A DNA stretch of 64,000 bases from Bordetella genomosp. 12 (lineage in GTDB: Bacteria > Pseudomonadota > Gammaproteobacteria > Burkholderiales > Burkholderiaceae_B), in contig NZ_NEVU01000001.1 of the NCBI RefSeq assembly GCF_002261355.1, forward strand, positions 310,001 through 374,000, given 5' to 3'. Positions within the stretch are counted from its first letter, which is position 1; each line of letters starts with the position of its first letter. Below, piece after piece: positions 3,866-64,000 of the stretch. The position numbers and the translations under genes were made by a program. The notes below the pieces were generated by a model. That model made no database searches. It was not told the origin of the DNA and worked only from the letters and a program-made list of their open reading frames with translations.

Positions 3866-3868
3866 GGT

Positions 3869-4228
3869 TTAACGGCTGATCTGGATTTCCACGCCCACTG
3901 CGTTGCAGTCCGAAAAGGCCATGGGCTTGCTGATGCGCAGGCGCAAGGCCCGGACTTCCGCGAACTCGGCCAGCAGCCGGGCGGCGACCTGTTCGGACAG
4001 CGTTTCGATTAGGTTGACGTGAGCCTGGGTGCATTCCTGCACGATGGCTTCGCGCAGGCTGCGGTAGTCCAGCACGCTCTGGATGTCGTGGTCGTCCACA
4101 TTGCGCGTGATGTCGATATCGAACTCGGCATCGATGTGCAGCGGCTGGGTGGCGCGGCGTTCGTGTTCGAGGATGCCGATGCGGGCGTCCAGGGCGAGGC
4201 CCGAAATGAAAATACGGCGAGTGGGCAT
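3869..4228 (-). CDS. folB: Dihydroneopterin aldolase
   Basis: Folate-pathway enzyme that cleaves 7,8-dihydroneopterin to 6-hydroxymethyl-dihydropterin and glycolaldehyde. It has 119 residues, the normal length for FolB, beginning IFISGLALDARIGILEHERRATQPLHID, with the family core DYRSLREAIVQE and LIETLSEQVAARLL. The C-terminal KPMAFSDCNAVGVEI region is also typical. It sits upstream of ttcA on the same strand and divergent from the flavoprotein gene. Confidence 0.93.
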   Translation of the reverse strand: MPTRRIFISGLALDARIGILEHERRATQPLHIDAEFDIDITRNVDDHDIQSVLDYRSLREAIVQECTQAHVNLIETLSEQVAARLLAEFAEVRALRLRISKPMAFSDCNAVGVEIQISR

Positions 4229-4335
4229 AATGAACTCTAGGCGGGGAGAAGCTGAATTGTAAGTCGGTGAGGCGGTTTGCGCGGTCTGACTACAATTCGG
4301 ACAGCGCGCCCGTGGGCGGCGCGAAAGAGGGATAT

Positions 4336-5223
4336 ATGCAGCAGTTTTACGATGCGGTCATCGTGGGGGCGGGGCCGGCGGGCGCGTCCTGCGCGGTCTG
4401 GCTGGCCCGGCTGGGCCTGTCGCCGGTGCTGGTCGAGGCCGGCCCGCGTGCCGGCGGGCTGACGGCGGACAACCCCTTTGCCGATGACTGGATCGTGGCG
4501 GTAGCCGGGCTGACCGGCCAGCAGATCGCGGGACAGATCGCCGAGAGTCTGGAGCAGGCCGGGGTGCCGCTGCGGCTGGGTGCCGCGGCGCGCTCGGTGC
4601 GGCCCTGCAAAGGAGGCATCGTCTTGAGCCTGGCGGATCCGGCGCAGTCATTGCACGGGCGTTGTCTGGTCATCGCCAGCGGCGTGCGCGCGCGCGGGTT
4701 GCCGGGTCATCCGCCAGGCGTGAGCTGGCCGGGCGTGCTGATCGGCCCGGGCTCGCCCATCGTGGCCCAGGATTACTCGGGCCTGTCGGTCGCCGTGCTG
4801 GGGGGCGGCGATAATGCCTTCGAGAATTTCGTCTATGTACGCAATCGCGGCGCGCGCCAGGTGCATCTGTATGCGCGCAGCGTGCGGGCGCAGCAGCAGT
4901 GGGTGCAGCGCGCCGGCAGCGCGGGCGTGAGCGTGGGCGCCTATGAGGTGGATCCCGCCGCGCGCCGCGTCAACGGGCAGCGCTATGACCTCATCCTGGT
5001 GTTCTATGGCTGGGAGCCGCAGGCCGACTTCGCCGACGGGCTGAATCTGGCCCGCGATGCGCGCGGCTATATCCAGACCGAGACGGCCACCGCGCGCACC
5101 AGCCTGCCGGATGTCTACGCGATTGGCGAGGTCGCCAATCGCGCCCACCCCTGCGTGGTGACCGCCATGGCCGATGGCGTCGTGGCCGCCAAGGACATCC
5201 AGCGGCGCTGGGAGCGCGCTTAA
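4336..5223 (+). CDS. NAD(P)/FAD-dependent oxidoreductase, thioredoxin-reductase fold
   Basis: A 295-residue flavoprotein with two Rossmann nucleotide-binding folds: the FAD motif VIVGAGPAGASCAVWL at the N-terminus and the NAD(P) motif VAVLGGGDNAFENF about residue 155. The C-terminal FAD contact appears in DVYAIGEVANRAHPCVVTAMADG. The fold matches thioredoxin reductase and ferredoxin-NADP reductase type 2, but I see no redox CxxC pair, so it is unlikely to reduce thioredoxin. The ATG at 4336 was preferred over an in-frame upstream start because AAAGAGG lies 5-11 bases before it and the FAD motif follows at once. The electron acceptor is unknown. Confidence 0.8.
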   Translation: MQQFYDAVIVGAGPAGASCAVWLARLGLSPVLVEAGPRAGGLTADNPFADDWIVAVAGLTGQQIAGQIAESLEQAGVPLRLGAAARSVRPCKGGIVLSLADPAQSLHGRCLVIASGVRARGLPGHPPGVSWPGVLIGPGSPIVAQDYSGLSVAVLGGGDNAFENFVYVRNRGARQVHLYARSVRAQQQWVQRAGSAGVSVGAYEVDPAARRVNGQRYDLILVFYGWEPQADFADGLNLARDARGYIQTETATARTSLPDVYAIGEVANRAHPCVVTAMADGVVAAKDIQRRWERA

Positions 5224-5233
5224 GCGAGCGGCG

Positions 5234-6994
5234 TCAGGCCGTGTCGCTTAGCACGCAGTCCAGGGCCTCGGGGGCGGCCAGCCGCAGCCGGTAAGCGCGC
5301 AGTTCGTCGCGCCGGAAAACGTGTACCAGCACGCGGTCGCCCGGGCGGTACTGCGACAGCAGCACATCCAGGCCCGCGGGCGCTTCGACCTTCAGTCCAT
5401 CGATGGCCACCAGCACGTCGCCGGCCGACAGGCCGGCCCGATGCGCCGCACCGCCTTCGAACACCGTGGCCAGCACCAGGCTGTCGGCCTGCTTGCGCGT
5501 GCGCACATCCATGCTGGGAATGGGGCTGGCGGTTTTCCAGCGCACCTCTACGCCGTGCGGCGCCAGCAACTCCGTCAGCGGCACGTCGGCGCGCCCATAG
5601 GCATAGCGCTGAATGAAGCGGCGCGCATCCACACCGGTGGCTTCGCGCACCAGGGCCGGGAATTCCGTTTCGCCCAGGCCTTGCGGCCGGCCTTGGTAGA
5701 AATCGCGGCCATAGCGCTGCCACAGCAGCCGCATGACGTCATCCAGACTGCGCTGGCCCTGACTGTCGCGGCGGATGAGCAGATCCAGACCCAGCGCGAC
5801 CAGCGACCCCTTGGTGTAGTAGCTCACCAGGGCATTGGGCGAGTTCTCGTCCTGCTTGTAGTAGCGCGTCCAGGCGTCGAACGAGCTCTCGGCCACCGAC
5901 TGCTTGTGCCGGCCAGGGCTGCGCATCACGCCGGTGATGGCCTTGCTCAGCAGGCGCAGGTAGTCGGCGCGGCCGATGACTTCGGCGCGCAGCAGCAGCA
6001 GGTCGTCGTAATAAGAGGTGAAGCCTTCGAAGATCCACAGTAGCCGGGTCAGGTCGGGCTGTTGCAGGCCGTAGGGGGCGAAGGCTGCCGGTTTGATACG
6101 TTTGACGTTCCAGGTGTGGAAGTATTCGTGGCTCACCAGCCCCAGAAAACTGCGGTAGCCCTCGCCCTGCCCTTGCTGGCCCAGCACGGGCAGATCCTTG
6201 CGCGCGGTCATGAGCGCGGTGCTGGCGCGGTGCTCCAGGCCACCGTAGCCGTCACCCGTGACCATGGTCATGAAGACATAGCGGTCGGCGCTGTCCAGAA
6301 ACGGCGCGCGCCGGGTGCGCGGCTCGAAGAAGGCGATCTGCGTTTCACAGATTTTTTGCACATCGCGTGCGATGCGCGCCAGGTCCAGGTGCGGCGCCAC
6401 GCCGGTAAACACCAGCTCGTGCTCGGCGCCATGGGCGGTGAAGCGGGCCACTTGCGGCGTGCCCATTTCGACTGGATGGTCGATCAGGGCGTCGTAGTCG
6501 GGGGCCTGATAGCGGCCAAAACCATGGCGGCGCGCGCCGGCTTGCGGCAGGCTCGTGTAGACCTTCCAGCCCTCGATGCCGGGAGGCGGAGCGAGGTCCA
6601 GCTGACAGGGCTGATCATCCTGGCCATGCACGCGCAGAAAGACGCTGGTGCCGTTGAAAAAACCGTGGCTTTCGTCCAGGTGCGCGCCGCGCACGGACAG
6701 GTCCCAGGCGTAAACCGTGTAGTCGATCACTACCGGCCCGGCGCAGGGCGCCAGTTGCCAGGTATGGTTGTCCGTCTTCTCGACCGCCACGGGGCGATTG
6801 CCCGCCCGCGCGGAGAGCGTTTCGATCTGGCGCGAAAAATCGCGGATCAGGTAGCTGCCCGGGATCCAGGCCGGCAGCGACAGCCGCTGGCCCTGGGGGT
6901 CGGGCTGTTGCACCGTTAGGGTTATCCGGTAGCGATGGCCGGCCGGGTCATGGGGCTCAAGGCGGTAAATTACGGGTGCGTCGTTCATCCGCAT
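5234..6994 (-). CDS. M61 (glycyl aminopeptidase) family metallopeptidase with PDZ domain
   Basis: A 586-residue zinc peptidase of family M61. An N-terminal beta-rich domain (about 1-170) is followed by the catalytic domain with the zinc motif [11 protein letters not shown] (about residue 290) and the downstream Glu in [14 protein letters not shown]-terminal PDZ domain (about 490-570) contains [21 protein letters not shown] see no signal peptide. GAGAAG lies upstream of the chosen ATG; a second ATG two codons later is possible. The family is known for cleaving peptides with N-terminal Gly or Ala; the natural substrate here is unknown. It is convergent with the flavoprotein gene. Confidence 0.87.
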
Positions 6995-7029
6995 ATCTTA
7001 CTTCTCATATTCTTCGCAGGAGACATTCC

Positions 7030-7806
7030 ATGAGCGAGTCGTTTGTACTGGTCGAAACCCGTGGCCGAGTGGGTCTGTTGACCTTGAACCGTCCCAAGGC
7101 CCTCAATGCCCTGAACGACCAGCTCATGGATGAGCTCGGCGCGGCCTTGCTGGCGTTCGAGGCCGATGCCGGCATCGGCGCGATTGTGATCACCGGCAGC
7201 GAGAAAGCCTTCGCCGCCGGCGCCGATATCGGCGCCATGAAAGACTGGTCATATATGGATGTCTACGGTAGCGAATACATCACGCGCAACTGGGAGACGC
7301 TCAAGCGCGTGCGCAAGCCCGTGATCGCGGCCGTGGCCGGCTATGCCCTGGGTGGCGGCTGCGAACTGGCCATGATGTGCGACATCGTGATTGCCGCCGA
7401 TACGGCGCGCTTTGGCCAGCCCGAAATCAAATTGGGCGTGATTCCCGGCGCGGGCGGAACGCAACGCCTGACGCGCGCGGTGGGCAAGTCCAAGGCCATG
7501 GATCTGGTGCTCACGGCCCGCATGATGAACGCCGACGAAGCCGAGCGCAGCGGGCTGGTCTCGCGCGTGGTGGCCGCCGACAAACTGCTCGACGAAGCGC
7601 TGGATGCGGCGACCATCATCGCCTCGATGTCCTTGCCTTCGGTCATGATGGCCAAGGAGTGCGTCAATCGCGCCTTCGAGGTCTCGCTCAACGAGGGCCT
7701 GCTGTTCGAGCGCCGCGTATTCCATTCGCTGTTTGCCACCGATGACCAGAAAGAAGGCATGGCTGCCTTTACCGAGAAGCGCAAACCCGACTTCAAGCAC
7801 CGCTGA
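7030..7806 (+). CDS. Enoyl-CoA hydratase (crotonase), both catalytic Glu present
   Basis: Short-chain enoyl-CoA hydratase, adding water across 2-trans-enoyl-CoA in beta-oxidation. The 258-residue sequence has the oxyanion-hole loop AAGADIGAM, the first catalytic Glu in [13 protein letters not shown] (Glu112) and the second in [13 protein letters not shown] (Glu132). Both equivalents of crotonase Glu144/Glu164 are therefore retained. The ATG at 7030 is chosen because AGGAGA lies 8-13 bases upstream; an in-frame ATG at 6976 would add 18 non-homologous residues. It is a single-gene unit, ended by the terminator at 7854-7887. Confidence 0.92.
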
Positions 7807-7853
7807 GCCCCTTGGCCGGTTACTTGTCGTAGTGTCTGGTTGCCAGGCGCCTG

Positions 7854-7887
7854 AACCGCCCGCCCGCATTCGCCGGCGGGCGGTTTG
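7854..7887 (+). terminator. Rho-independent-type terminator after the enoyl-CoA hydratase gene
   Basis: A perfect 11-bp inverted repeat (AACCGCCCGCC with GGCGGGCGGTT) with a 10-base loop, ending in a short T run (TTTG). It lies 47 bases after the stop codon. Confidence 0.7.
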
Positions 7888-8076
7888 TCTATGAAAAAGG
7901 CGTGCGGCCTGGGCCTTGGCAGCCTGCGCGGCGGCGCTGCTCATGTTGCCCGTTGAAACCTTTGCATTGCACTCTGTTGCAGGTCAGAAGCCTATGCTGG
8001 GTGGACTCAGTCGCGCCGGCTGATGCCTGCGGGATGTCGGCGGCGCGTCCGTCCAACGAGAAACAAGGAGCCTCAT

Positions 8077-9570
8077 ATGCAAACACCGGCAAACCGCAAG
8101 TTGCGTTGGCAAGCGGCCTTGGTGGCCAGCGTGCTGGGAGTGGCCGCGCTGGGCAGCGCCCAGGCACAGGACCGCTCGCCGACGCCGACACTGCGTCTGG
8201 TGTCCGAGACGCCTTATCCGGCTTCCTCCAGCGGCGTGCGCCTGGCGCCGCTGTCCGCGCAGGAGCTGCGCGATCTGGCGGTCGACGCCTATGTCTATGC
8301 CTATCCGATGGTGCTGATGGAGGTCACGCGCCGCCAGACCACCAATGTGCAATCGCCGGTGGGCGGGCGCGCGCCCATGAACCAGTTCGGGCACCGGACC
8401 GCCGCGCCCGACGCACGCACGGCCGATATGGCCTGGCCCAGCACCGACACGCTGTATTCCAGCCTTTGGTATGACGTCTCGCGCGAGCCGCTGATCGTGC
8501 AGGTGCCTGATGCCGGCGAGCGCTTCGTGATGCTGAATCTGCTCGACATGTGGACCGACAGCTTCGCCACGCGCGGTACGCGGGCCAATGGCCGCGGACC
8601 CCAGACCTTCGCCATCGTGGGCCCGAGCTGGCAGGGCACGCTGCCGGCCGGCGTGGATCTGGTGCGCAGTCCGACCGCAACGGGCTGGCTGATCGGCCGC
8701 GTGCAGGCGGGCGGCCCGAACGATGCCCAGGCCTTGAGTCAGTTCCAGGCCGGTTTGTCGGCCACCCCCATGAATCAGTACGGCCATGGCTACGGCTTTG
8801 CCGCCAGCGGCCCGGTCAACACGACCTGGAACACCCAGGGCACACCGGCCGAACAGGTGGCCAATATGGATGCCGCCACCTTCTTCACGCTCTTTTCCGA
8901 GCTGGTGCGCAACAACCCGCCGCATGCCAACGATTACCCCATGCTCGACCGCCTGCGCCGCATCGGCATCGGCGACCGCCCGCTGGTCTTTGGCCAACTG
9001 GAGCCGGCGGTGCAGCAGGCGCTGAACGAGGCGCAGCCCCTGGCCGGCCGCCGTATCGCCGACGGCATCTCGCGGCTGAGCACGCCGGCCAACAACTGGA
9101 ACACCGTGCTCTCGGGCATCGGCACCTATGGCACGGACTATCTGCGCCGTGCTTCGGTGGCCTATGCGGGGCTGGGCGCGAGTCCGCCGGAAGAGGTCAT
9201 CTATCCGGTCACCGGCGCGGACAACAAGGGCCGGCCCCTGGAGAGCGGACGCGACTATGTTCTGCACTTCGACAAGGGGCAGTTGCCGCCGGTCGACGGC
9301 TTCTGGTCGATCAACCTCTACGACGCGCACCAGGGTTTTGCCGAGAATGCCGCCAACCGTTACACCCTGCGCAGCTCCGATCCGCTCAAGTACAACAGTG
9401 ACGGGTCGCTGGATATCTACATCCGGCGCGACCATCCGGGTGCGTCGCGCGAAGCCAACTGGCTGCCCGCGCCGCGCGAGGGTAATTTCCTGGTCAATCT
9501 GCGTCTGTATGCGCCGCACAACATCGCGCTGGACGGCCAATGGGCCCCGCCGCCCATCGTCCGCGATTGA
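8077..9570 (+). CDS. Exported DUF1254/DUF1214 domain protein
   Basis: A 497-residue protein with an N-terminal signal peptide (WQAALVASVLGVAALGSAQA, cleavage before QDR) and then a DUF1254 region (about 60-190: YAYPMVLMEVTRRQTTN, MAWPSTDTLYSSLWYDVSREP). A C-terminal DUF1214 region follows (about 370-490: GFWSINLYDAHQGF, SDGSLDIYIRRDHPG). The start at 8077 has an AAGGAG ribosome site; the longer frame from 8023 would put charged residues before the signal. Proteins with this pair of domains are common in proteobacteria and their biochemical role is unknown. It stands alone, with a strong terminator behind it. Confidence 0.82.
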   Translation: MQTPANRKLRWQAALVASVLGVAALGSAQAQDRSPTPTLRLVSETPYPASSSGVRLAPLSAQELRDLAVDAYVYAYPMVLMEVTRRQTTNVQSPVGGRAPMNQFGHRTAAPDARTADMAWPSTDTLYSSLWYDVSREPLIVQVPDAGERFVMLNLLDMWTDSFATRGTRANGRGPQTFAIVGPSWQGTLPAGVDLVRSPTATGWLIGRVQAGGPNDAQALSQFQAGLSATPMNQYGHGYGFAASGPVNTTWNTQGTPAEQVANMDAATFFTLFSELVRNNPPHANDYPMLDRLRRIGIGDRPLVFGQLEPAVQQALNEAQPLAGRRIADGISRLSTPANNWNTVLSGIGTYGTDYLRRASVAYAGLGASPPEEVIYPVTGADNKGRPLESGRDYVLHFDKGQLPPVDGFWSINLYDAHQGFAENAANRYTLRSSDPLKYNSDGSLDIYIRRDHPGASREANWLPAPREGNFLVNLRLYAPHNIALDGQWAPPPIVRD

Positions 9571-9603
9571 AAAACCGGCTTTTCGCACTGATTTCCGTGT
9601 TTT

Positions 9604-9630
9604 TCCCCCCGTTGTCGGGGGGATTTTTTT
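9604..9630 (+). terminator. Rho-independent terminator ahead of the atp operon
   Basis: The stem TCCCCCCG / CGGGGGGA with a TTGT loop is followed by seven T residues. It closes the DUF1254 gene and separates it from the ATP synthase operon. Confidence 0.85.
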
Positions 9631-9682
9631 GCCGGACTTGAAAAGGGACGGGGCACCCCCATCTGGTGGCCCGTTTTCTCAT

Positions 9683-9712
9683 TTGTCTGCCGAATTGCTT
9701 TCAAGCTATACT
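9683..9712 (+). promoter_or_regulatory. Candidate sigma-70 promoter of the atp operon
   Basis: A -35-like TTGTCT (9683-9688) and a -10-like TATACT (9707-9712) are separated by 18 bases. Transcription would start near 9719 and give a leader of about 290 bases before atpI. A weaker alternative is TTGACG (9721-9726) with TAGCTT (9743-9748). Called by eye only. Confidence 0.45.
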
Positions 9713-10005
9713 TTCGCGGTTTGACGCTTGCGGGGTAACACGTAGCTTAAAAGCTGCGCCTGGGCGGCCAATAGCAAATTGGGCGAAAAACGCTAGAGAG
9801 GCCACGTTCGGTGGCTCGATTCCCACCCCATATCCTGGGGGCTTATCTGATGCACTTGCCAGCCATTGCCGACCCTGTCGGCGACGGGGAGCGGGCGGCG
9901 GCGGAAGGCACGGAAATCGGGTTGCAGGGCCACTTTCGAAGCAAGCCTTGAGCCGTGCTGCGATGTCGTGGCGATATCGTGGGCGGTTATGGGCGGGGAA
10001 GCTTA
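9713..10005 (+). other. Long presumed untranslated leader of the atp operon with tandem hairpins
   Basis: About 290 bases without a convincing gene. It contains a short palindrome around TAGCTTAAAAGCT, then two adjacent hairpins near 9800-9842: GCCAC/GTGGC with a GTTCG loop, and CCCCA/TGGGG with a TATCC loop. A frame running through it into atpI has no family resemblance and was not accepted as a gene. It may be a structured leader that affects translation or stability; no known riboswitch class was recognised. Confidence 0.4.
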
Positions 10006-10422
10006 ATGCAGAAGAGTTTGGTTCTTACCGATGCGGATCGCGCGGCCATCAATGCGCGTGCGTGCCGGGAACTCTTTATGGCTGTCTTGGCACAGGGGCT
10101 CATGGGACTCGTGGCGGCAGCAATCGCGGGGGCGGTTGCGGGAACGGCGGCGGCAACGTCGGCGTTATTGGGAGCGGGGGCGTATTTCTTGCCCAATGCA
10201 TTGTTTGCATTGCGCTTACTGATAAACGTCGTCAAGTCGGTACAGCCCAATCCGTTGACCTTTTTCGTGGGCGAGATGTTCAAGCTGTTCATAACGGCGC
10301 TGCTGTTGTGGCTGATATGGCACTACACACAGGCCTGGTTGGTCTGGCCGGCGGTGCTGTTGGGCTTGATATTGACGCTCAAGGGCTATCTCGTGCTGTT
10401 GATGTTCCGCAAGTTGTCATAG
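10006..10422 (+). CDS. atpI: ATP synthase subunit I (AtpI)
   Basis: Small inner-membrane protein at the head of many atp operons, thought to help assemble the c-ring or supply Mg2+. The 138-residue product has about four hydrophobic segments, including LFMAVLAQGLMGLVAAAIAG, LLGAGAYFLPNALFALRLL and LFITALLLWLIWHY. The ATG at 10006 follows GGGGAAG by a few bases; the longer frame starting at 9955 is not supported. The gene is 66 bases upstream of atpB. AtpI is poorly conserved, so the call leans on length, topology and position. Confidence 0.85.
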   Translation: MQKSLVLTDADRAAINARACRELFMAVLAQGLMGLVAAAIAGAVAGTAAATSALLGAGAYFLPNALFALRLLINVVKSVQPNPLTFFVGEMFKLFITALLLWLIWHYTQAWLVWPAVLLGLILTLKGYLVLLMFRKLS

Positions 10423-10488
10423 CGCAATTAACAATCGTGCATGCCGTTTCGCAAGAGGCGGCGCACAGCAAACAGGGTAGGATTTCAC

Positions 10489-11370
10489 ATGGCTGCAGCC
10501 AGTGGCGCGTCGCCTCAGTCCGAGTACATCCAGCATCACTTGGTGCACCTGAACAACCTGGGTGAGAAACAGTCCGTTATCGCCCAGTTCAACGTCATCA
10601 ACTATGACTCGTTGTTCTGGTCCGGCCTCATGGGTCTGGTCGTCGTCTTTTTCCTGTGGCTGGCCGCGCGCCGTGCCACGTCGGGCGTGCCGGGTCGCTT
10701 CCAGGGTTTTGTCGAAATGATCGTCGACATGGTCGACGATCAGGCCAAGGGCATCGTGCACAACGCCCAGAGCCGCCTGTTCGTCGCGCCGCTGGCCCTG
10801 ACCGTCTTCGTCTGGATCATCCTGATGAACGCGCTGGACCTGCTGCCGGTCGATCTGCTGCCGTCCCTGTGGCGCATCACCGGCCTGGGCGCGCATCACG
10901 GCGATCCGCTTTATTACCACCGCATTCTCCCCACTGCCGACCTGAACGTGCCGATGGGCATGTCGCTGGGCGTGCTGCTCCTGATGTTCTATTACGGCAT
11001 CAAGATCAAGCACCCGGCCGGTTTCGTCAAAGAATTGTTCACCGCGCCGTTCCACGCGCATGGCCTGGCGGCCGTCGTGCTGGCGCCCTTCAATCTGTTG
11101 CTCAACCTCATCGAGTACGCCGCCAAGTCGGTTTCGCTCGGCATGCGGTTGTTCGGCAACATGTTTGCCGGTGAGCTGGTCTTTATGCTGATCGCCCTGC
11201 TGGGTGGCGCCTGGACGGGCTTTAACGCCTCCAGCATCGGTTTGGGCATTGGGCATGTGTTGGCCGGTTCGGTGTGGGCAATCTTCCACATCCTGATCGT
11301 GCTGCTGCAGGCATTCATCTTCATGATGCTGACCCTGGTGTACATCGGTCAGGCTCACGAAGGTCATTGA
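10489..11370 (+). CDS. atpB: ATP synthase Fo subunit a
   Basis: Integral membrane subunit a, which forms the proton half-channels against the c-ring. It has 293 residues and 5-6 membrane segments, with the essential Arg helix visible as [24 protein letters not shown]. The helix near the C-terminus ([30 protein letters not shown]) is also typical. The ATG at 10489 was preferred over 10441 because AGGGTAGG lies just upstream and the protein then begins [18 protein letters not shown]. Confidence 0.96.
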
Positions 11371-11458
11371 TCCCAATTTTCGGTGCACGCCATGGTGGCG
11401 GGCACCGATGGCAAGATTTTCTTGCATTCAAGTAGTACCCGTTTTCTAACATTTCTGA

Positions 11459-11728
<270 letters not shown>

Positions 11729-55275: not shown

Positions 55276-55447
55276 CTGGAATACCTTCCGTTGTTCTGTG
55301 CAGCGCGGTGGCTGCTGCCGTCCTGTTGGCAGATGCGTGAAGCAGCGTGGGACGGATTATTTCAACGGCCAGATGTTCGAGGAAGTGAATTACACTGCCG
55401 CTGAATTAACCAAAATGAATACCCAGGGAAAACCCGATCCGTCAGCC
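55276..55447. promoter_or_regulatory. Divergent control region, LysR gene and kynureninase operon
   Basis: 172 bases. TGAATTA occurs twice in direct orientation, 15 bases apart (near 55386 and 55401), in an AT-rich patch. This could be part of a LysR binding region, but no firm promoter pair was identified. Confidence 0.3.
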
Positions 55448-56353
55448 ATGAGCAATCTGGAGCATCGCATTTCCCTGCGTCACTTACGGCTCATCGACGT
55501 GATCGAGCGCGAGGGGAGTCTGGTTCGTGCGGCCGAACGGCTGAACATGACCCAATCCGCCGTCACCAAGGCGCTGCAGGAAGTCGAGGCCCTGATCGGC
55601 GTGGCCTTGTTTCGGCGCACCAGCCGCGGCGCCGTCGCCACGGCCTGCGGCCAGATGCTGGTGGGGCATGCGCGCGGCATTCTCACCCAATTGCGGCGCG
55701 TCAGCCGTGACCTGGATGAATGGCGCGAGGGCCATGGCAGCGTCGCCATCGGAACCCTGCCTTCGGCGGCCGGCGGGCTGTTGCCTCAGGCGGTCGCGCG
55801 TGTCATCGGCGCCAATCCTGCCCTGCGTGTATCCATCTCCGAAGGGCAGCACGAATGGCTGACCACCTTGCTGCGCAGAGGCGAGCTGGACCTGGTGGTC
55901 GGCCGTCTTCCGCCGGGCGGCGTGCCGGTGGACATCGAGCAGAAAGTGTTGGGTCCGGACCGCGCCCAGCTGGTCGTGCGCGCCTCGCATCCGCTGTTGC
56001 AGATGGCTTCGCCGTCACTGGCCGATATGAAACGCTGGCCGTGGATTCTGCCGCCGGTCAATGCCAGCCTGCGGCGCCAGATCGACTCAGCCTTCGAAGC
56101 CGCCGAGCTTGAGCCGCCCGTGCCCCATGTGGAATCGATGTCTTTTCTGAGCAACCGCACCCTGCTGCTGGCGGCGGACTTCATCACGATCTGGCCACAT
56201 CATCTCGCCGACGTCGAGGCCGGCAGCGGACTCGTCGTGGCGCTGCCGATCGAACTGCCTGACACCGAACGCCCCATCGGCGTGTGGTGGCGCGCCGAGT
56301 CCGGCTTGTCTCCGTCGGCCGGGCTGATCGTGCAGGCGCTCGCGGCCTGTTGA
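55448..56353 (+). CDS. LysR-family transcriptional regulator of the adjacent operon
   Basis: A 301-residue LysR regulator. The N-terminal winged helix-turn-helix reads ISLRHLRLIDVIEREGSLVRAAERLNMTQSAVTKALQEVEALIGVALFRRTSRG, followed by the periplasmic-binding-protein-like effector domain (VAIGTLPSAAGGLLPQAV). The start at 55448 (MSNLEHRI) gives the normal length; an in-frame ATG at 55415 is possible. Divergent placement opposite the aldehyde dehydrogenase gene, with a 172-base shared gap, suggests it activates the kynurenine-type operon. Confidence 0.9.
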   Translation: MSNLEHRISLRHLRLIDVIEREGSLVRAAERLNMTQSAVTKALQEVEALIGVALFRRTSRGAVATACGQMLVGHARGILTQLRRVSRDLDEWREGHGSVAIGTLPSAAGGLLPQAVARVIGANPALRVSISEGQHEWLTTLLRRGELDLVVGRLPPGGVPVDIEQKVLGPDRAQLVVRASHPLLQMASPSLADMKRWPWILPPVNASLRRQIDSAFEAAELEPPVPHVESMSFLSNRTLLLAADFITIWPHHLADVEAGSGLVVALPIELPDTERPIGVWWRAESGLSPSAGLIVQALAAC

Positions 56354-56462: not shown

Positions 56463-57686
56463 TCAGCCGGACGATGCGCCCCGAAACGCCAACACCGCAT
56501 TGTTTCCGCCCATGCCGAAAGAGTTGGAGAGGGCGGTGCGCAACGTGGGAATCGAACGAGATCCCTCCGGGATGTAGTCCAGATCACAGTGCTCGTCACC
56601 TGCTTCCCAGTACAGCGTAGGGGGCACGTGGCGCGCCTGAACGGCCAAGGCCGTGATTGCCGCTTCCACCGCGCCGGCCGCACCGATCAAGTGGCCGAGC
56701 GCCCCTTTGGTGCTGCTGATCGGAAGATCGCTGGCGTGAGCGCCGAAGACCTGCTTGATGGCCTCGGTTTCGATGCGGTCGCCCAGCAGGGTGCCGGTCG
56801 CATGGGCGTTCAAATAGCCGACTTCCTCTGGTGCGATGCCGGCGTCCGCCAGGCAGCGCGACATGGCCAGAGACTGGCCGCGCGAGTCGGGACGCAGGGG
56901 ATGGGTGCCATCATTGCTTGTTCCGTATCCGCAGATCTCCGCGATGATGGTCGCGCCGCGTGCGGTGGCGTGCGCCTCGGACTCAAGCATCATCAAACCG
57001 GCGCCTTCGGACAAGGCAAAGCCGGATCGCTTGAGACTGAAGGGGCGGCAGCCGCCCACCTTGCCCGCCTCGGGTGCGCCGCACAGGACATGCAATTGCT
57101 GCCAGCCCGATATGACGGGCGCGACCATCATGGACTCGACGCCGCCCGCCAGGGCCAGATCGAGGTAGCCGTCGCGGATTCTGCGAAAGGCCTCGCCGAT
57201 CGCCACGGCGCCCGCGGAGCACGCCGTCGCATAGGTCTGCGCTTCGGCCATGGACTTCATGCTCTGTGCGAGATGCGCCGCGGGCGCATTGGCCATGACG
57301 GCCGGGATCACCAGGATCGCGCGTTTGGGCGTGACATGGTGGAAAATCTCCACCGCTTCGCTCAGCGTGCTCACGCCACCCACGCCCGTGCCGATGAACA
57401 CGCCACATTGGCTCATCTGATCTTCATCGAGGCGGGCCGCCTGCAGCGTCTCACGAGCCGCGGAATCGGCCAGCAGGGTCACCCGATCCATGTTGCGGGC
57501 CTGAGAGGCTGCGACGAAATCGGTGACCGGTGCGGTAACGATACCCACCTGGCGATCGGTGCGGCCGGACGGATCGGCAATGAGCCCGCAGCGGCCTGCC
57601 AGGGCCGCGGCGAAGGTTTCCTGAGCGGTCGCGCCGAGCGGAGTGACCATGCCCATGGCGGTGATAACGACACGGCGTTTGGTCAT
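56463..57686 (-). CDS. Beta-ketoacyl-ACP synthase (FabF-like), last gene of the pilus locus
   Basis: A 407-residue condensing enzyme with the intact Cys-His-His triad: Cys156 in ATACSAG, His295 in NAHATGT and His332 in GALGHLIGAAG, plus Lys327. It therefore should join acyl units, unlike Cys-lacking chain-length factors. The sequence starts RRVVITAMGMVTPLGAT and ends NSFGMGGNNAVLAF as in FabF. Its ATG overlaps the stop of the ACP-like gene (57683-57686), so the two are coupled in translation. No other fatty-acid gene lies nearby, which suggests a dedicated role. Confidence 0.9.
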   Translation of the reverse strand: MTKRRVVITAMGMVTPLGATAQETFAAALAGRCGLIADPSGRTDRQVGIVTAPVTDFVAASQARNMDRVTLLADSAARETLQAARLDEDQMSQCGVFIGTGVGGVSTLSEAVEIFHHVTPKRAILVIPAVMANAPAAHLAQSMKSMAEAQTYATACSAGAVAIGEAFRRIRDGYLDLALAGGVESMMVAPVISGWQQLHVLCGAPEAGKVGGCRPFSLKRSGFALSEGAGLMMLESEAHATARGATIIAEICGYGTSNDGTHPLRPDSRGQSLAMSRCLADAGIAPEEVGYLNAHATGTLLGDRIETEAIKQVFGAHASDLPISSTKGALGHLIGAAGAVEAAITALAVQARHVPPTLYWEAGDEHCDLDYIPEGSRSIPTLRTALSNSFGMGGNNAVLAFRGASSG

Positions 57687-58186
57687 GGTTGATGGGGCGG
57701 GCGCTGACCGCTATCCGGGGTGTCCGGCGCCTGGCGGCCGCGCGTCTCGATCGGCGCGTGTCCATCGTCGCTCGGTGGTGTGCCGGCCTTGCGTTGCGCC
57801 TGGCGTATGCGCGCCTGCATGGCGGCCTGGCGCGCCGGGCGCTGAGCGATGACATCATGCATGTAGTCGATGAGCGCGCTCAGGTTGGCGGGGAAAATAC
57901 TGGTCATTTCCTGCGCGCCTGCCTCCTCATCGACGGGGAGCATTTCGTCGGTATCGATGCCGTAGGTCTTTTCTATTTCGAGCAATATCTCGAGCACCGC
58001 GAGCGAGTCGAACTGTTCGACGGCGCTGGAGAATGGTTGGTCGTCAAGCAATGGCTGCGGATCGCAATTACAGACGCGGGCGACGATCTCGGCCAGTTTT
58101 TGGCGCAACTCGTCAGTCGCGGGCAAAGCGATTTCTTCAAGTTGCGTCGGCATCGCGGACTCAGAAGGGAGAAAGACCGGCCTCAT
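57683..58186 (-). CDS. Acyl carrier protein-like protein with C-terminal extension
   Basis: A 167-residue protein. The ACP core (about 20-115) has the phosphopantetheine attachment motif DSL in EQFDSLAVLEILLEIEKTYGID, Ser61. The last ~50 residues are a Pro/Arg/Gln-rich tail (from about AQRPARQAAMQ), absent from housekeeping ACPs of ~80 residues. The ATG at 58186 has AGGAT directly upstream; starts at 58228 and 58153 are also in frame. It lies about 80 bases after the tip-protein gene with no terminator seen, so probably belongs to the pilus transcript. Confidence 0.8.
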   Translation of the reverse strand: MRPVFLPSESAMPTQLEEIALPATDELRQKLAEIVARVCNCDPQPLLDDQPFSSAVEQFDSLAVLEILLEIEKTYGIDTDEMLPVDEEAGAQEMTSIFPANLSALIDYMHDVIAQRPARQAAMQARIRQAQRKAGTPPSDDGHAPIETRGRQAPDTPDSGQRPPHQP

Positions 58187-58267
58187 ATCCTGCCGGCCGA
58201 TGGCGCGAACTACTTGGTACGCCTGCATCTTACCTCAGGGCAGCAGCGGCACGGGCCTTGCGCCGCC

Positions 58268-59407
58268 TCAGTTATAGGTAAAGGTAAGGGTGGCCGTCGA
58301 CGTCACCGGTCCGGCCCTTACCGTGTTGTTGGCCCCGATCTGCTTCAGATTGGCCGCGATGCGGAAGCTCCACAAGGACGTGGGCGAGGCGCCATCGGCG
58401 GAGACGCCATAGTCGGGATGGGCCAATCCGAATGTGGGCGCCGTATAGCCGCCGCCAGGCGTAGGCGATCCGAGCCATACATCGATGCCGACGCCTTCGG
58501 CTTTGTTGGCGGCCGACGACATATTCGCCAGGGTGTTCTGCGTCCCGGCGACGAGATGCGAGGAGGCGATCGTGATCGAAGGCGAAATCGTACTGGGGAC
58601 ATTGCATGCGACCGAGAAAGTCAGGTCGGTCTTCGGTCCTTCCCCGTCGCGCAGCAGCGTCGTGGTCGACACATCGGGCAAGGTCAGGGTCAGGGCGGCG
58701 CTCGTCGTGTCGCAGGTCGGATTCGCGACGGTGATGCTGCTGGCCAGGTAGACCTTGTAGAGCTGTGTCGCAGGCGCCCCTGCTACGGTCGATTGGCCGT
58801 ATACCTGCGAGGCGGAAATGGTTCCCAGGCCCACCGGTCCGCCGGTGGCCACCAGTTCTATCATCGTCTCCAGGCTCGGCCCCGCCTCTCCTCCGCCAAA
58901 CGGGTAGTACAGCACGCCGTTGGCGTAAGGGTTGGCATAGGACTGCGGGGCGAAAACAGCGCTGTTCGGATCGCCGCTTTGCATGTAGTAAGCGACGCGG
59001 TAGCCGATGCCCTGCAAACCCGTGCTGTAGACGTCGCTGAAGCCGGCGACCAGCGCGCCGGCACCCGCGAAGTTCTCGACGGTTCCCTGTGTGCAACCGT
59101 AGTAGGCGGTGCCCCGCCCCTGCTGCCCGCCCGAGTAAGTGGGCAAGGGCTTGGTCATGCGCATCAGGATCTGACCCGGCGTCGGATTGCTGGGCGCGGC
59201 GATGATCGTCTGCGGCGGCGATAAGGGGTAGCGCGCCGAGTTCGGGTCATAGCGTTCGTAGGTGGTGCCGGTGGCCGGACCCGTGCCACCGGGATTGACG
59301 GCGCACGCCGCGCGCGCATCATGCATCGACACCAGACTGGCTGCCGCGGCCAGCAGGGTCAGTACGACGGGCCGCGCGCCGGCTCGCAATGGCTTTAGTG
59401 CTGGCAT
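58268..59407 (-). CDS. Pilus tip/adhesin-type subunit
   Basis: A 379-residue exported protein. Signal peptide PVVLTLLAAAASLVSMHDARA, then an N-terminal domain unlike pilins (about 35-220, a candidate receptor-binding domain). A C-terminal pilin-like domain (about 225-379) begins near NPTCDTTSAALTLTLPDV and ends with a beta-strand motif (TATLTFTYN) suited to donor-strand exchange. Its ATG overlaps the usher stop by 13 bases. Length and two-domain shape match chaperone-usher tip adhesins. The receptor is unknown. Confidence 0.8.
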   Translation of the reverse strand: MPALKPLRAGARPVVLTLLAAAASLVSMHDARAACAVNPGGTGPATGTTYERYDPNSARYPLSPPQTIIAAPSNPTPGQILMRMTKPLPTYSGGQQGRGTAYYGCTQGTVENFAGAGALVAGFSDVYSTGLQGIGYRVAYYMQSGDPNSAVFAPQSYANPYANGVLYYPFGGGEAGPSLETMIELVATGGPVGLGTISASQVYGQSTVAGAPATQLYKVYLASSITVANPTCDTTSAALTLTLPDVSTTTLLRDGEGPKTDLTFSVACNVPSTISPSITIASSHLVAGTQNTLANMSSAANKAEGVGIDVWLGSPTPGGGYTAPTFGLAHPDYGVSADGASPTSLWSFRIAANLKQIGANNTVRAGPVTSTATLTFTYN

Positions 59408-61926
59408 ACCAACTCCCTGGGCGCGGCATCAGCCTTGTCTTGCACGACGGCGTCGTCGACCACGACGGTGCAACGATGCTGCTGCCGCTCTCCCCATTTC
59501 ACGACCAGATGGACGTCGGTCCGCAGGCCGGTCAGCCATACGCGGCCCACGGGCCCGACGATGCCGCGTTGCTCGCCGTCGGTGTCGTAGACACTGGCGC
59601 CGAACGGCAGGATATCGCCCTGCGGGTCGCGCAGGCTGATCAGGCGCGCGCGTCCCACGTCGGTGTCGAACTTTGCGACGACGATGGCCCCTCGGGTAGG
59701 CACGACAGATTTAATGTTGTCTTTCAGCGTAGCCTCCATATCCTCTTCGGCGGCGGTCAGAAGCATGCGATTCTCGCGGTAGGGCGTGGCGTACGGAACC
59801 AGGGCGCGCCCCTGGGCGTTGGTGCGTACACCGGGATAGTTGTTGACTTCCACGCCGCCGGCGCCCGGGGCATCGATGATGACTGCGGTCTCGCCGATGT
59901 CCTGGCCGAACAGCGGCCCGCGCGCGTCGATCACCATGGCGCCGCTGACATCCAGCGTCGTGCTGCGGTTGCTTTGATCGTAAGCATGGCTGAGGTTGAC
60001 TGTGCCTACGGGCGACTGATATCCCAGGGAGCCATAACCATGATTGCCGTTGTTGTCGCCGCTGCCGCTGGTGACGCCCGTCTGGACGGCATAGGTCAAT
60101 GAATAGTCGTCGTTGAGCGGCCCGCTTAGGGCGACGTCGTTACTGGTGCCATTGTGGTTGCTATGGTTGAGCGTGTAGCTGGCCGTCTGGCGCGCGCCCA
60201 AGGGAATGCTGAAGGTGACCATCAGCATGCGGTCGGTGGCGCCCCATGGCCCCTTGCTCAGGCTGTAGTTCACCGAGTAGCCGATAAAACCGGCCGAACT
60301 GTTGAAGCCGAGCTGCATATAGGCGGAGTTTCGCGGCGCGTTGCGGTAGGTAACCCCGAAGTAATTGAGAGAAATCGAAGAGACGGTGCCGACCCGCTGA
60401 GCAAGGGAGAGTTGGTATTCGTGTTGCCGGTTGTAGGCGTATTGCGTTTGCGAGAGGGAGGCGCGTTCGCGCACCACGTCGTCGAGGCTGCGAAATCCTG
60501 AGGAGCTGTAGCGATAGCCCGCAAGGGTGAAGTCCGTACCTGAGCCGGCAAACGACTTTGCGTACTGCAGATGCGCGGCATGGCCCGAATCTCGTTTGCC
60601 CTTGTCGCTCTCCGAGCGCGAGCCGATGACGTCGAGCGACAGGGCGCCGAGATACTCCAGATTCCATCCGGCGCCAAGCGCCAGGGATTGAAACTTGTGT
60701 TGCGCAACCATCGCACCACCGTAGGCGGTCAACCCATAAGGCAGGCCGTAGGCTGCCGTGGCCTGCCCGAGCCAGGGCTTGGAGGATCCGTAGTTGTGGC
60801 GATACTCGCCCAAGGCGGCGTTGTATTTCCATATGCCTTCGCGCATGAGCATGGGCAGGGCGGCAAACGGCTGCATAAAGCGTGTCGTCTTGCCGCCAAT
60901 CTCCTGGACTTCGACCTCCAGGTCGCCAGCCCCCGGCGTGGAATAAAGATCGTTGATGACGAAGGGGCCGGCGGGCACGAAGGTGGAGTAGATGACGTTG
61001 CCGCGTTGGCGCACGGTCACCTTGGCGTAGCCCGATGCAATGCCGCGAATGACGGGCGCATAACCGCGTTGGCTGTCGGGCAGCATGCCTTCATCGGAGC
61101 GTAGCTGCAGGCCGCGTAACCGCAGGCCGGTGAAGATGTCTCCGGACGTATAAGCGTCGCCCATGCGAAGCACCCCCCGCCATGGGTTGATCGAGCGCTC
61201 CAGGTATCGGTCTCCCCAGTCCCATTCGGCGCGGCCGCCGGAGTCGTAATAGTTTCCATTGACCCGGACCCGCCAGGCGCCCACATTCAGGCCGCTGCGC
61301 AAGCTGGCAAAGCGCGTGTCGCTGCTTTGCTTTTGGTCGCCGAATGAGTAATGCGTGCGGTTCATCGAGAGCCGGTAGGCGGACCAGAAAGCGGTCGCAC
61401 CGTCGTCCCACATGTCCGGCGGGATATAGCCGCGCGCCTTGTTATCCAGGGCGGCTTGAGGGATGGACACATTGAGGATGTTCTTGCTGTGATCGTAACG
61501 AGTGAAGGCATTGGGTAAGGCGTTCAGCCCGCTCAGGCAGTCCTGAGGATCGATATTCCGAAAGGCAGGGAAGGCTTCGGTTTTCACACCGAGCTCGTGC
61601 AAGAACGCAGGCGTCATGCAGGGCTGGGCGTCGAACTTTCCTGCCGCTTTGACGAAATCAAGTTCCCGGATACCCAAGGGCTGTTCGTTGAGCCGAACGA
61701 AAACCGAGTGCATGCCGGGAAGCACGCGGTTGGACTGCGAGAACACCGAGAGGTCGGCCTTGGGTTGGCCATCGATGTGATGCAGAAAATTACTGTCGAA
61801 CTGCATCCCCGACGCGGCAGTCTCCGGATCGGGATCCGGGGATTGGGCCTGAGCCACGCTGACCAGGAGCATAAGCAGCGTCGTGCCCAGGGACGCAGAG
61901 GGTCGTGGCGGCAAGCGCGTTGTCAT
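59395..61926 (-). CDS. Outer-membrane pilus usher (FimD/PapC family)
   Basis: An 843-residue usher that threads pilus subunits through the outer membrane. Signal peptide (TTLLMLLVSVAQAQ), N-terminal chaperone-binding domain (GMQFDSNFLHH, SQSNRVLPGMHSVFVRLN), and a long barrel with internal plug (APVIRGIASGYAKVTVRQRGNVIYSTFVPAGPFVINDLYSTPGAGDLEVEVQE). C-terminal domains contain AVIIDAPGAGGVEVNNYPGVRTNAQGRALVPYATPYREN. The start codon shares one base with the chaperone stop. The open frame extends upstream, but that part shadows the chaperone gene. Confidence 0.95.
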   Translation of the reverse strand: MTTRLPPRPSASLGTTLLMLLVSVAQAQSPDPDPETAASGMQFDSNFLHHIDGQPKADLSVFSQSNRVLPGMHSVFVRLNEQPLGIRELDFVKAAGKFDAQPCMTPAFLHELGVKTEAFPAFRNIDPQDCLSGLNALPNAFTRYDHSKNILNVSIPQAALDNKARGYIPPDMWDDGATAFWSAYRLSMNRTHYSFGDQKQSSDTRFASLRSGLNVGAWRVRVNGNYYDSGGRAEWDWGDRYLERSINPWRGVLRMGDAYTSGDIFTGLRLRGLQLRSDEGMLPDSQRGYAPVIRGIASGYAKVTVRQRGNVIYSTFVPAGPFVINDLYSTPGAGDLEVEVQEIGGKTTRFMQPFAALPMLMREGIWKYNAALGEYRHNYGSSKPWLGQATAAYGLPYGLTAYGGAMVAQHKFQSLALGAGWNLEYLGALSLDVIGSRSESDKGKRDSGHAAHLQYAKSFAGSGTDFTLAGYRYSSSGFRSLDDVVRERASLSQTQYAYNRQHEYQLSLAQRVGTVSSISLNYFGVTYRNAPRNSAYMQLGFNSSAGFIGYSVNYSLSKGPWGATDRMLMVTFSIPLGARQTASYTLNHSNHNGTSNDVALSGPLNDDYSLTYAVQTGVTSGSGDNNGNHGYGSLGYQSPVGTVNLSHAYDQSNRSTTLDVSGAMVIDARGPLFGQDIGETAVIIDAPGAGGVEVNNYPGVRTNAQGRALVPYATPYRENRMLLTAAEEDMEATLKDNIKSVVPTRGAIVVAKFDTDVGRARLISLRDPQGDILPFGASVYDTDGEQRGIVGPVGRVWLTGLRTDVHLVVKWGERQQHRCTVVVDDAVVQDKADAAPRELVCQH

Positions 61927-62654
61927 TACCTCGGCCTGGCCGCAGTGCCTCCTGACTGCGGCGTGACGGCCGGCCATGCTTCGAAAGCGCCGTAGTCGTT
62001 GACGACATGCGGCGTGATGGTGGAACCGGGCGGGGGGCACGAGGCGAGTTCGACGGTAGTGGTCGTCAGCGGCAAGGCCACTACGCCTCTTCCCACCTCC
62101 TGGTTGAGCCCGGAAACGACGAGCTTGGAGAAATTGACATTGAAGGCGGAGGCGTTGGCGATGCTGAGCTGGCATTTCGCTGCACCGCGCTGTACGGTCC
62201 AGCCAAGCTGCTCCGGTCCCCGGGGCAGGCCGCGGATCGCGGCGGGTCGATAGAACAGCTTGATCCGGGTGCGGGTGGCGAAGGCAAGCGTGTTGGTGGT
62301 GGATTGCGCTTTCTGGGGGATCTCCAGAACGTTGATCCAGTAATAGCTTTCCCGGTCTTGGGGCACGTTGTCGCCGACCCGTGTGACGGTCAGGCTGCGT
62401 TCGGTGTCGCCATCGAAGCGGCTCAACGGCGGTGTGATGAAGAACGGCGTTTCCATCTTCTCGCCGACGCCTTCGATCCAGGCTTGGACGACGACGGGCT
62501 CGCCAAGATTCTTGGCGTAGACGGCAGCACTGCGTTTGCCTTCCTCGAAGATCAGCCTCGTACTGGATAACTGAACCGCCGCATCGGCTTGGGGAACAGC
62601 CATGGGCCAGAGGAAGGCGCCCAGGTAAAGACAAATGGCCGGTCTGAGTTTCAT
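61926..62654 (-). CDS. Periplasmic pilus chaperone (PapD family)
   Basis: A 242-residue chaperone that caps pilus subunits by donor-strand complementation. Signal peptide ends near PQADAA. The first Ig-like domain has STRLIFEEGKRSAAVYAKNLGEPVVVQAWIEG, and the interactive G1 strand reads NVLEIPQKAQ. The second domain has TRIKLFYRPAAIRG. The ATG at 62654 is preferred over a GTG at 62663 because AGGTG lies 8 bases before it. Confidence 0.93.
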   Translation of the reverse strand: MKLRPAICLYLGAFLWPMAVPQADAAVQLSSTRLIFEEGKRSAAVYAKNLGEPVVVQAWIEGVGEKMETPFFITPPLSRFDGDTERSLTVTRVGDNVPQDRESYYWINVLEIPQKAQSTTNTLAFATRTRIKLFYRPAAIRGLPRGPEQLGWTVQRGAAKCQLSIANASAFNVNFSKLVVSGLNQEVGRGVVALPLTTTTVELASCPPPGSTITPHVVNDYGAFEAWPAVTPQSGGTAARPR

Positions 62655-62719
62655 CAAGTACACCTATTGTTGCAGCAGCGCAAAGGGCGAGACGGAGACG
62701 GGGTCGGGCCGCCGGGGAT

Positions 62720-63274
62720 TCAGCTATAGGAGATGGTGACGAGGACCGAACTGGACGCGGGCCCGGGCACGACGGTCGCGCCTGGGATGCGTGCGTACGC
62801 GGCGCGCAGTTCGAAGGTGGTCTTCCCGCTGGCGACATCGAGCGGGTAGCTGACGAGACCGTTGAAGCTGATGTTCTGACCCAGCGTTCCATGAATGGGG
62901 TCGTTGTTCTTCAGCGTGATGGCGATGCCTTGGGCCACTCCGCTCACGGGTGTCAATGCCAGGCCGGTGGCATCTGGAAGCTGGCTGACCACCGTCCCGG
63001 TGAAGGTCAGACTCGCCGAGCGCAGTGTGGTCAATTCGCAATCTCCGATAGTGAGGGAGAAATCCTTGGTGTAGTTAGCGCCCATCGCGCCGTTGGGGCC
63101 GAATTCGATGATGGGAACCCGCCCCAGAACGACGGTAGGTGAAGACAGCGTGCAGGGCGTCGTCGTCAGGTTTGCGTTGATGGTCAATACGGTGGATGCA
63201 TGGGCGTAGCCCGCACTCAGCGCCAGCGTCAGCGCCGTGGGCCATCCGAAAACTGCCATTGTGAGAGCGCGCAT
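62720..63274 (-). CDS. Minor fimbrial subunit (FimA/pilin-fold)
   Basis: A 184-residue exported pilin-fold protein. Signal peptide LTLALSAGYAHA, paired Cys in TTPCTLSSPTVVLG and IGDCELTT, and a C-terminal beta-strand ending VLVTISYS as expected for donor-strand exchange. It lies between the major subunit and chaperone genes. It could be a linker, an adaptor or a second shaft subunit. Confidence 0.85.
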   Translation of the reverse strand: MRALTMAVFGWPTALTLALSAGYAHASTVLTINANLTTTPCTLSSPTVVLGRVPIIEFGPNGAMGANYTKDFSLTIGDCELTTLRSASLTFTGTVVSQLPDATGLALTPVSGVAQGIAITLKNNDPIHGTLGQNISFNGLVSYPLDVASGKTTFELRAAYARIPGATVVPGPASSSVLVTISYS

Positions 63275-63311
63275 CGTGCATCCCGTGCGGAGTCCGGCAG
63301 ACGCAGGCCCA

Positions 63312-63340
63312 CTCTGGCGCGCGGTTCGAGCGCGCCAGAG
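63312..63340 (-). other. Strong hairpin after the major pilin gene
   Basis: A perfect 11-bp inverted repeat, CTCTGGCGCGC / GCGCGCCAGAG, with a 7-base loop and no T run, between the major and minor pilin genes. It may protect the major-pilin message or reduce read-through. Confidence 0.5.
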
Positions 63341-63409
63341 GGTCGGTACCTGGCTGGGTTCGGGGCTGAACCGGATCTCAGATCCGGCTCAGGTCTTCGT
63401 GGGCGTCTG

Positions 63410-63940
63410 TCAGACGTAGGTCAGCGTGAAGATAGCCTTCCCGTTTGCGGAACCCGCGACGACGGTAGCGCTCGTGGATTCGTAGAAGGCTTTGAAATTC
63501 AGGTTGTTGTTTCCATCGGAGAGCCCGTAGCGCGTGGCCGGGCCGCCGATCACGACGTTGGCGCCGTCTTGATCCTGAATGCCGATGGCTACGCCTTGGG
63601 CGCCGCCATTGTTCTCCAGCCCAAGCAGGCGGCTGTTCACCACTGCCCCCGCACCCGGCGCGAAAGCGACATCCACGTTCTGAGCCACGGACGTGTCGCA
63701 GCCGACCAGGGCGATGGTGAAGTCCACCATGGGGCTGCGGTCTCCTGCAGCGGCAAAACGGTTCGTCGAGATCAATCCCAGCTGGATGGTCATATTGGTG
63801 CCAAGCTGGCCGCCGCCGAGGGAGCACGCCGAATTGGTGATCTCGCCTTCGAAATTGATGGTGCCGGTGTCCGCTGCAAAGCTGTTGCCCATGAGCGCCA
63901 TGGAAGCCGCGATGGCGGTTGCGATAAGTACTTTTTTCAT
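63410..63940 (-). CDS. Major fimbrial subunit (pilin)
   Basis: A 176-residue major pilin. Signal peptide MKKVLIATAIAASMALMGNSFA, then a classical type-1-fimbria fold with paired Cys in ITNSACSLGG and ALVGCDTS, donor strand TGTINFEGEITNSAC at the mature N-terminus and a closing strand KAIFTLTYV. GAAGGATC precedes the start. It is the first gene of the operon; its promoter lies in the last 60 bases of the window or beyond. Confidence 0.93.
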   Translation of the reverse strand: MKKVLIATAIAASMALMGNSFAADTGTINFEGEITNSACSLGGGQLGTNMTIQLGLISTNRFAAAGDRSPMVDFTIALVGCDTSVAQNVDVAFAPGAGAVVNSRLLGLENNGGAQGVAIGIQDQDGANVVIGGPATRYGLSDGNNNLNFKAFYESTSATVVAGSANGKAIFTLTYV

Positions 63941-64000
63941 GATGGAAGATCCTTCAAAAAAGTAAAGAGAACCGACTTACAGAAAAGGCACCGGCTCGAG

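Follow-up and report, generated by a model that had tools for sequence, protein, structure and literature searches.

A variant chaperone-usher pilus operon of Bordetella and related genera with an uncharacterised acyl module

Introduction

What task could an acyl carrier protein (ACP) and a beta-ketoacyl-ACP synthase have in an operon for a chaperone-usher pilus? The question is raised by a stretch of 64,000 nucleotides of Bordetella genomosp. 12 (contig NZ_NEVU01000001.1, positions 310,001 to 374,000; referred to as the window), part of a genome of 4.5 Mb, in which the genes for pilins, chaperone, usher and tip protein are followed on the same strand by such a pair. Few bacterial organelles have been studied as well as chaperone-usher pili, and the textbook pathway involves no acyl chemistry. 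A preliminary description of the window had suggested that the ACP-synthase pair builds an acyl chain that modifies the pilus, its tip protein or nearby surface material.

Comparison with related genomes leads us to rate the operon as a variant of the chaperone-usher pilus with an uncharacterised acyl module, apparently not described before. We know of no chaperone-usher system with an ACP, a synthase and the small gene, here called c7, that precedes the pilin genes; no account of this operon was found among the literature matches listed, in a search that had most subscription journals outside its coverage. Association of the module with the pilus is well supported. As to its function, we favour, at a probability of about 0.42, a classical pilus combined with a module resembling NodF and NodE (NodFE), whose special acyl chain would go to a protein of the operon, either c7 or a pilus subunit.

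Co-inheritance of the acyl module and the pilus genes

The ACP, usher and synthase proteins were used separately to search 200 genomes of the family. With cut-offs that were chosen once the lists had been seen (E <1e-20 for the ACP, <1e-200 for the usher and <1e-100 for the synthase), each protein picked out the same 15 genomes, the window genome included, from six genera. One genome has two copies of the set, and in G154 the three genes are spread over two contigs. The drop in E-value past the set was steep for the ACP (from 4e-22 to 1e-4) and smaller for the usher (from 3e-203 to 9e-170); for the synthase it went from 1e-120, a partial match to an interrupted gene in G036, to 1e-89. The next matches were the ACP-synthase pair of G163, another genome of the genus (29% and 42%), and the usher of G181 (39%). 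As the search scores only the best candidates per genome, extra copies could be missed; the genome sets searched here, of family, order and phylum alike, are samples and not complete surveys.

Together with two loci from a named collection (Achromobacter kerstersii and an Achromobacter metagenome bin), the family genomes yielded 18 distinct loci, the named hosts being Bordetella, Achromobacter, Alcaligenes, Paenalcaligenes and an unplaced Alcaligenaceae bacterium. At 16 of the 18, the genes for pilin, chaperone, usher, tip, ACP and synthase follow one another in this order on one strand. In L034, a contig of 4 kb that starts at the tip gene, only tip, ACP and synthase are visible. In L078, which comes from G036, a segment with the first pilin (L078:3975-4499, minus strand) is inverted and the break splits the second pilin gene, a gene that is not present in all loci; no inverted repeat of at least 12 bases was found at the break points. 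The tip proteins of L033, L034 and L035 were too diverged to match the window tip at the first threshold, and L033 and L035 have a Fimbrial-domain gene in the tip position, while L034 has a piece of the same similarity cluster. The frames of ACP and synthase overlap in 11 of the 18 loci, by either 4 or 11 bases, and are 13–38 bases apart in six (gene starts chosen by script; L078 left out because its synthase is interrupted). The spacing between tip and ACP is −4 to 18 bases in 7 of the 16 measurable loci and 55–218 bases in the rest.

Chance adjacency of pair and pilus is rejected on these data (15/15 genomes, 18 loci), because the same genomes hold all three genes and because tip and ACP overlap or lie at most 18 bases apart in 7 of 16 loci. 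The preliminary description had called for a survey of usher-ACP-synthase neighbourhoods, and the linkage proved to be conserved among the 200 family genomes; the pair next to unrelated loci with a pilus operon lacking it, sought in the same genomes, was not found.

The histories of usher and synthase are also largely parallel. Trees were built from 14 loci; of the 18, L027 and L078 were left out for their interrupted synthase, L034 for its missing usher, and L032 also. The two proteins had 7 of 11 splits in common. When the labels were shuffled 5000 times, the mean was 0.24 and the highest count 5. The mirror-tree correlation of the distances was 0.89. Strong matches to the ACP profile were confined to the family when the order (399 genomes) and the phylum (398 genomes) were sampled. 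Weak matches outside it were found in G468, G498, G680 and G908 (E 1e-5 to 1e-3), and near those of G498 and G680 no called gene resembled the synthase. Among 72,556 plasmid records nothing matched the ACP at E 0.01; usher relatives occur on plasmids, with a best identity of 38.2% among the matches listed (25 of 1,582 records). With the same gene set recurring in several genera, the operon looks like a dedicated system, and a dedication of the acyl module to the pilus operon is well supported by this comparison of genomes.

Sequence features of the ACP and the synthase

The synthase of the window retains the complete set of catalytic residues, as the preliminary description had noted for Cys156, His295 and His332; these and Lys327 are invariant in 13 pilus synthases and five outgroups (18 aligned rows). 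The serine of the ACP is likewise invariant in 16 of 16 aligned proteins. A role in which synthase or ACP is non-catalytic, for instance as sensor or regulator of pilus production, is therefore highly improbable. The synthase scores below the equivalog cut-off of TIGR03150, the housekeeping FabF (361 bits versus 493.75), and the genome has a second FabF-type synthase (L002) that is 36.5% identical to it. From the families to which the proteins belong we infer that the pilus synthase condenses malonyl units on the ACP of the operon.

Ratios of non-synonymous to synonymous substitution (dN/dS, NG86) were 0.10–0.15 for the synthase (three pairs), 0.14–0.26 for the ACP (two pairs), 0.11–0.19 for c7 (two pairs) and 0.185–0.198 for the usher (three pairs), values that are rough because several dS are near 1. 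By this measure the synthase appears to be under purifying selection. The frame is interrupted in 2 of the 18 loci. In L027 the synthase (about 10372-11589) has an in-frame stop after about 270 codons, whereas the other operon genes tested are open; in L078 it is split into two frames in the same copy that has the inverted pilin, so that the whole operon may be decaying there. Such losses count in favour of the pair being a passenger that is inherited along with the operon without serving the pilus. Maintenance in six genera with strict co-occurrence, the invariant catalytic residues and the low dN/dS of the synthase speak against a passenger, and we consider this explanation improbable.

Relatives of the ACP-synthase pair

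A synthase tree built from 20 rows places the pilus synthases in a single clade (support 100/99). The sister of this clade is the synthase of G163 (99/96), followed by three NodE proteins (100/99), which form a clade of their own (100/100) outside of which the pilus synthases fall; the FabF-type synthase of the window genome is placed outside this assemblage. The ACP of G163 is clearly related to the pilus ACPs (hhalign probability 97). For NodF, which gave 44 and barely aligned, a relationship is not clear.

The pair of G163 is the nearest found outside the pilus set, but a leader peptide, a C39 ABC exporter and HlyD take the place of the pilus. The gene order is leader gene, ACP-synthase pair, a protein denoted P0002, an ABC exporter with C39 peptidase, HlyD and a MacB-like protein. 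The leader gene (L074:10165-9953) has 70 codons, a double-glycine-like leader and a plausible ribosome-binding site, as judged by eye. From its gene content the cluster resembles one for a modified, exported peptide and may be a system for lipidated peptides; no match to c7 was found in G163. Microcin loci of Serratia are reported to carry a gene similar to a toxin-activating lysine acyltransferase (PMC13101503).

The NodF-NodE pair of rhizobia shares with the pilus pair the order of ACP and synthase with abutting or overlapping frames. NodE is 39–40% identical to the pilus synthases and has the same catalytic set, and in both the Phe of the GFGG stretch of FabF is replaced by Met, at a position with a gating role. 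The two differ in that NodE forms a separate clade, NodF barely aligns with the pilus ACP, and the genes around NodFE are those for Nod factor rather than for a pilus. No NodA or chitin-oligomer genes were recognised among the operon proteins with Pfam; the neighbours of the 18 loci were only clustered by similarity, with no search aimed at NodA. What the precedent of NodFE teaches is that a dedicated ACP and synthase suffice for a special chain as long as housekeeping enzymes assist, and the pilus pair would by analogy do the same: the synthase would extend acyl chains on its dedicated ACP, and FabG, FabZ and FabI of the housekeeping pathway would perform the remaining steps, as they do with NodE and NodF in rhizobia.

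The small gene c7

The preliminary description had the run begin at the major pilin. The order it gave for the genes stands, but the conserved set begins one gene earlier, with c7 (L073:8978-9409, equivalent to G000:C3:373977-374408), which ends 36 bases before the major pilin on the minus strand and of which only the 3' end lies in the window. It encodes 143 amino acids (about 130–151 in relatives) and is present at 17 of the 18 loci; the exception is L034, the contig that starts at the tip gene. Six c7 proteins gave no Pfam match, even with E allowed up to 10. Their only two NCBIfam matches (E 0.066 and 0.21) were at chance level, and neither family is an acyltransferase of the HlyC kind. 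The two proteins tested against PHROG had no match, and the c7 profile had none among PDB sequences. An AlphaFold2 model of the L030 relative (12 sequences, mean pLDDT 83) has five helices and no strands. With this model Foldseek returned six PDB matches, all with E >6.

More distant relatives of c7 occur in another setting. Proteins encoded on Vibrio and Rhizobium plasmids have a c7-like C-terminal part (29–32% identity) behind leader-like, glycine-rich N-termini; in Vibrio their genes immediately precede those for HlyD and the C39 ABC exporter, and in Rhizobium two small genes lie in between. A c7-like domain also ends a 762-residue protein of phage HMO-2011, whose gene (L101:4066-6354) stands between those for portal and coat, and with this domain as query 61 viral loci were matched (L105-L165), HMO-2011 itself included. 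The plasmid proteins and the phage domain share with c7 a stretch of about 100 amino acids with an invariant Cys and the motif GY..WA.P. The c7 domain is thus otherwise found in proteins with export leaders or from the virion-gene region, joined either to a leader of double-glycine-like type or to the virion-region protein, whereas c7 of the pilus operon stands alone. In two phylum samples 1 of 238 and 1 of 159 genomes matched c7 besides the window genome (G688 both times). Two pieces of a c7-like gene in G169 (G169:C45:260-623) look like a remnant; this genome has no match to the usher, ACP or synthase of the set.

Pilus components

Apart from the acyl module and c7, the genes describe an ordinary pilus of the classical chaperone-usher type. 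As in pili of the Fim/Lpf type there are pilins, a PapD-type chaperone, a three-domain usher and a two-domain tip adhesin in the usual order, the likeness being one of genes; the operon differs from them by the addition of ACP, synthase and c7. The usher has the domains PapC_N, Usher and PapC_C, and its best NCBIfam match is LpfC, below the cut-off of that family. For the model of the tip protein (pLDDT 85) the best Foldseek matches were LpfD, FocH/FimH and CupB6 (E 4e-8 to 1e-7; LpfD 4e-8). Whole-length TM-scores were low (0.28–0.47 by query length), as would follow from a different angle between the two domains, and part of the protein matched the receptor domains of Abp1D, Abp2D and MrkD (TM 0.65–0.67 by target length). 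To judge by this model, the tip seems to be a two-domain adhesin of the ordinary kind.

In an alignment of 17 loci the major pilin shows the two cysteines that are usual for pilins. A lysine in an FKA motif was considered as universal acceptor and rejected; it is present in 15 of 17 rows and missing from those of Alcaligenes and Paenalcaligenes. A lipobox on the tip protein was likewise looked for, and none was seen by eye in the tip alignment.

Destination of the acyl chain

The earlier suggestion that the pair builds a chain that modifies pilus, tip or surface stands in part: the module is tied to the pilus by co-occurrence, but an obvious universal acylation site is lacking in the major pilin and the tip is ordinary. 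In our preferred reading the special acyl group would be moved to a product of the same operon (c7 or one of the pilus subunits), which would thereby become lipidated. An exported operon protein as acceptor is inferred only by analogy with the sister cluster: there, the sister pair with its homologous ACP stands beside a leader peptide, a weakly acyltransferase-like protein and C39 ABC/HlyD exporters, a setting that suggests an exported protein encoded in the operon itself. The relatives of c7 with leader-like N-terminal fusions, encoded close to exporters of this type, count on the same side. The stricter proposal that the operon both makes its own chain and attaches it to an exported protein, either a pilus subunit or c7 with its conserved Cys as acceptor, is unlikely in our estimate; if true, it would be a route of protein lipidation unrelated to lipoproteins and to HlyC.

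Several observations weigh against transfer to a protein of the operon. The weakest point is that Pfam recognises no acyltransferase among the operon proteins. A HlyC-like acyltransferase in the form of c7 is rejected on account of the missing family match, the all-helical model and the lack of a credible Foldseek match; acyltransferases of the HlyC type have a mixed alpha/beta fold. The 17 sequences of the major pilin contain no universal new candidate for an acylated or acceptor residue. The similarity of P0002 in the sister cluster to lipid A acyltransferases is weak (E 0.12) and finds no support among PDB sequences, and the sister placement itself comes from a thin sample of 20 rows with long branches that the program flagged as possibly false joins. 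The trees of usher and synthase disagree at four of the 11 splits, which leaves a degree of exchange or noise. Finally, of the two interrupted synthases the one in L027, with the other tested genes open, indicates that this pilus may persist without the enzyme.

The main rival to a protein acceptor is a lipid: the module would alter a lipid of the envelope (lipid A or a phospholipid) during pilus production, with housekeeping acyltransferases of the envelope using the special acyl-ACP. This would fit an operon without a recognised acyltransferase, as a housekeeping enzyme would then have to take the chain; on the other hand the sister pair adjoins genes for peptide export rather than lipid genes, and the sequence offers no hint of a lipid acceptor. 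We regard it as rather unlikely, though the first alternative to consider. Alternatively, the pair could make a small diffusible or free acyl product, a signal or surface-active lipid, that is expressed together with the pilus. ACP-synthase pairs are often used in small-molecule pathways, which is in favour of such a product, but the flanking genes of the 18 loci mostly vary and the only recurrent neighbours are an amino-acid permease (8/18) and a LuxR-type response regulator (5/18), a weak argument since these are similarity clusters with one member each named and most neighbours had no family search. The chance of a diffusible product appears small.

The co-inheritance of ACP, synthase and c7 in one class of pilus suggests that some pili need a custom fatty acid. 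The shared parts link three kinds of export: pili, bacteriocin-like peptides and leader-fused c7 proteins.

Gene organisation of the window

The features discussed are collected in Table 1. The preliminary description had assigned seven genes on the minus strand (two pilins, chaperone, usher, tip protein, ACP and synthase), and each is backed by Pfam. Its overlaps of 13 bases between usher and tip and of 4 bases between ACP and synthase are correct, and a simple scan of the minus strand found no terminator-like site in the gap of 114 bases between tip and ACP, in line with its statement. The serine of the DSL motif in the ACP, given there as Ser61, has this number only with the start at 58186; it becomes Ser50 with the start at 58153, and the frame of the nearest relative (L008) opens at the position equivalent to 58153. 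For the usher the start at 61929 is likelier, with a signal-peptide-like sequence as judged by eye and a 4-base overlap with the chaperone. The synthase is the last gene of the run, as a LysR-type regulator follows on the opposite strand. We propose as the best explanation of this arrangement that c7, pilin 1, often a second pilin, chaperone, usher, tip adhesin, ACP and synthase form one operon.

Table 1. Features of the pilus operon in the window and of related loci. Positions are those of the window unless a locus is named.
Feature	Position	Strand	Basis and remarks
c7	3' end 63977..64000; whole gene 63977-64408	minus	Upstream of pilin 1 in 17/18 loci
Major pilin	63410..63940	minus	Pfam Fimbrial PF00419, 2.9e-21
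Minor pilin	62720..63274	minus	Pfam Fimbrial, 8e-11; similar gene in some loci only
PapD-type chaperone	61926..62663	minus	PapD_N 1e-32, PapD_C 6e-5
Outer membrane usher	59395..61929	minus	PapC_N, Usher 2e-162, PapC_C; start 61929 preferred, 61992 possible
Two-domain tip adhesin (predicted)	58268..59407	minus	Pfam Fimbrial at residues 226-379; Foldseek matches
ACP	57683..58153	minus	PP-binding 2.3e-7; DSL Ser50 (Ser61 if start 58186)
FabF/NodE-like beta-ketoacyl-ACP synthase	56463..57686	minus	ketoacyl-synt N and C; Cys156-His295-Lys327-His332
LysR-type regulator	55298-56353	opposite to pilus run	Pfam; past synthase
Bacteriocin-like cluster	L074 (G163:C11:385000-404000), 1958-10165	minus	Leader peptide, ACP, synthase, P0002, C39 ABC exporter, HlyD, MacB-like
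Leader-fused c7-like proteins	L094:582-1157, L095:8761-9336, L096:7731-8366, L097:7731-8366		Annotated hypothetical; Vibrio and Rhizobium plasmids

Response-regulator-like genes lie near the operon in L024, L032, L036, L078 and L081 (one cluster, one member confirmed by Pfam) and may control the pilus operon. Divergently upstream of the operon, on the plus strand (L073:9457-13888), a gene for a sigma-70-family protein is followed by frames of 333 and 834 residues, perhaps of the FecI/FecR/TonB-receptor type.

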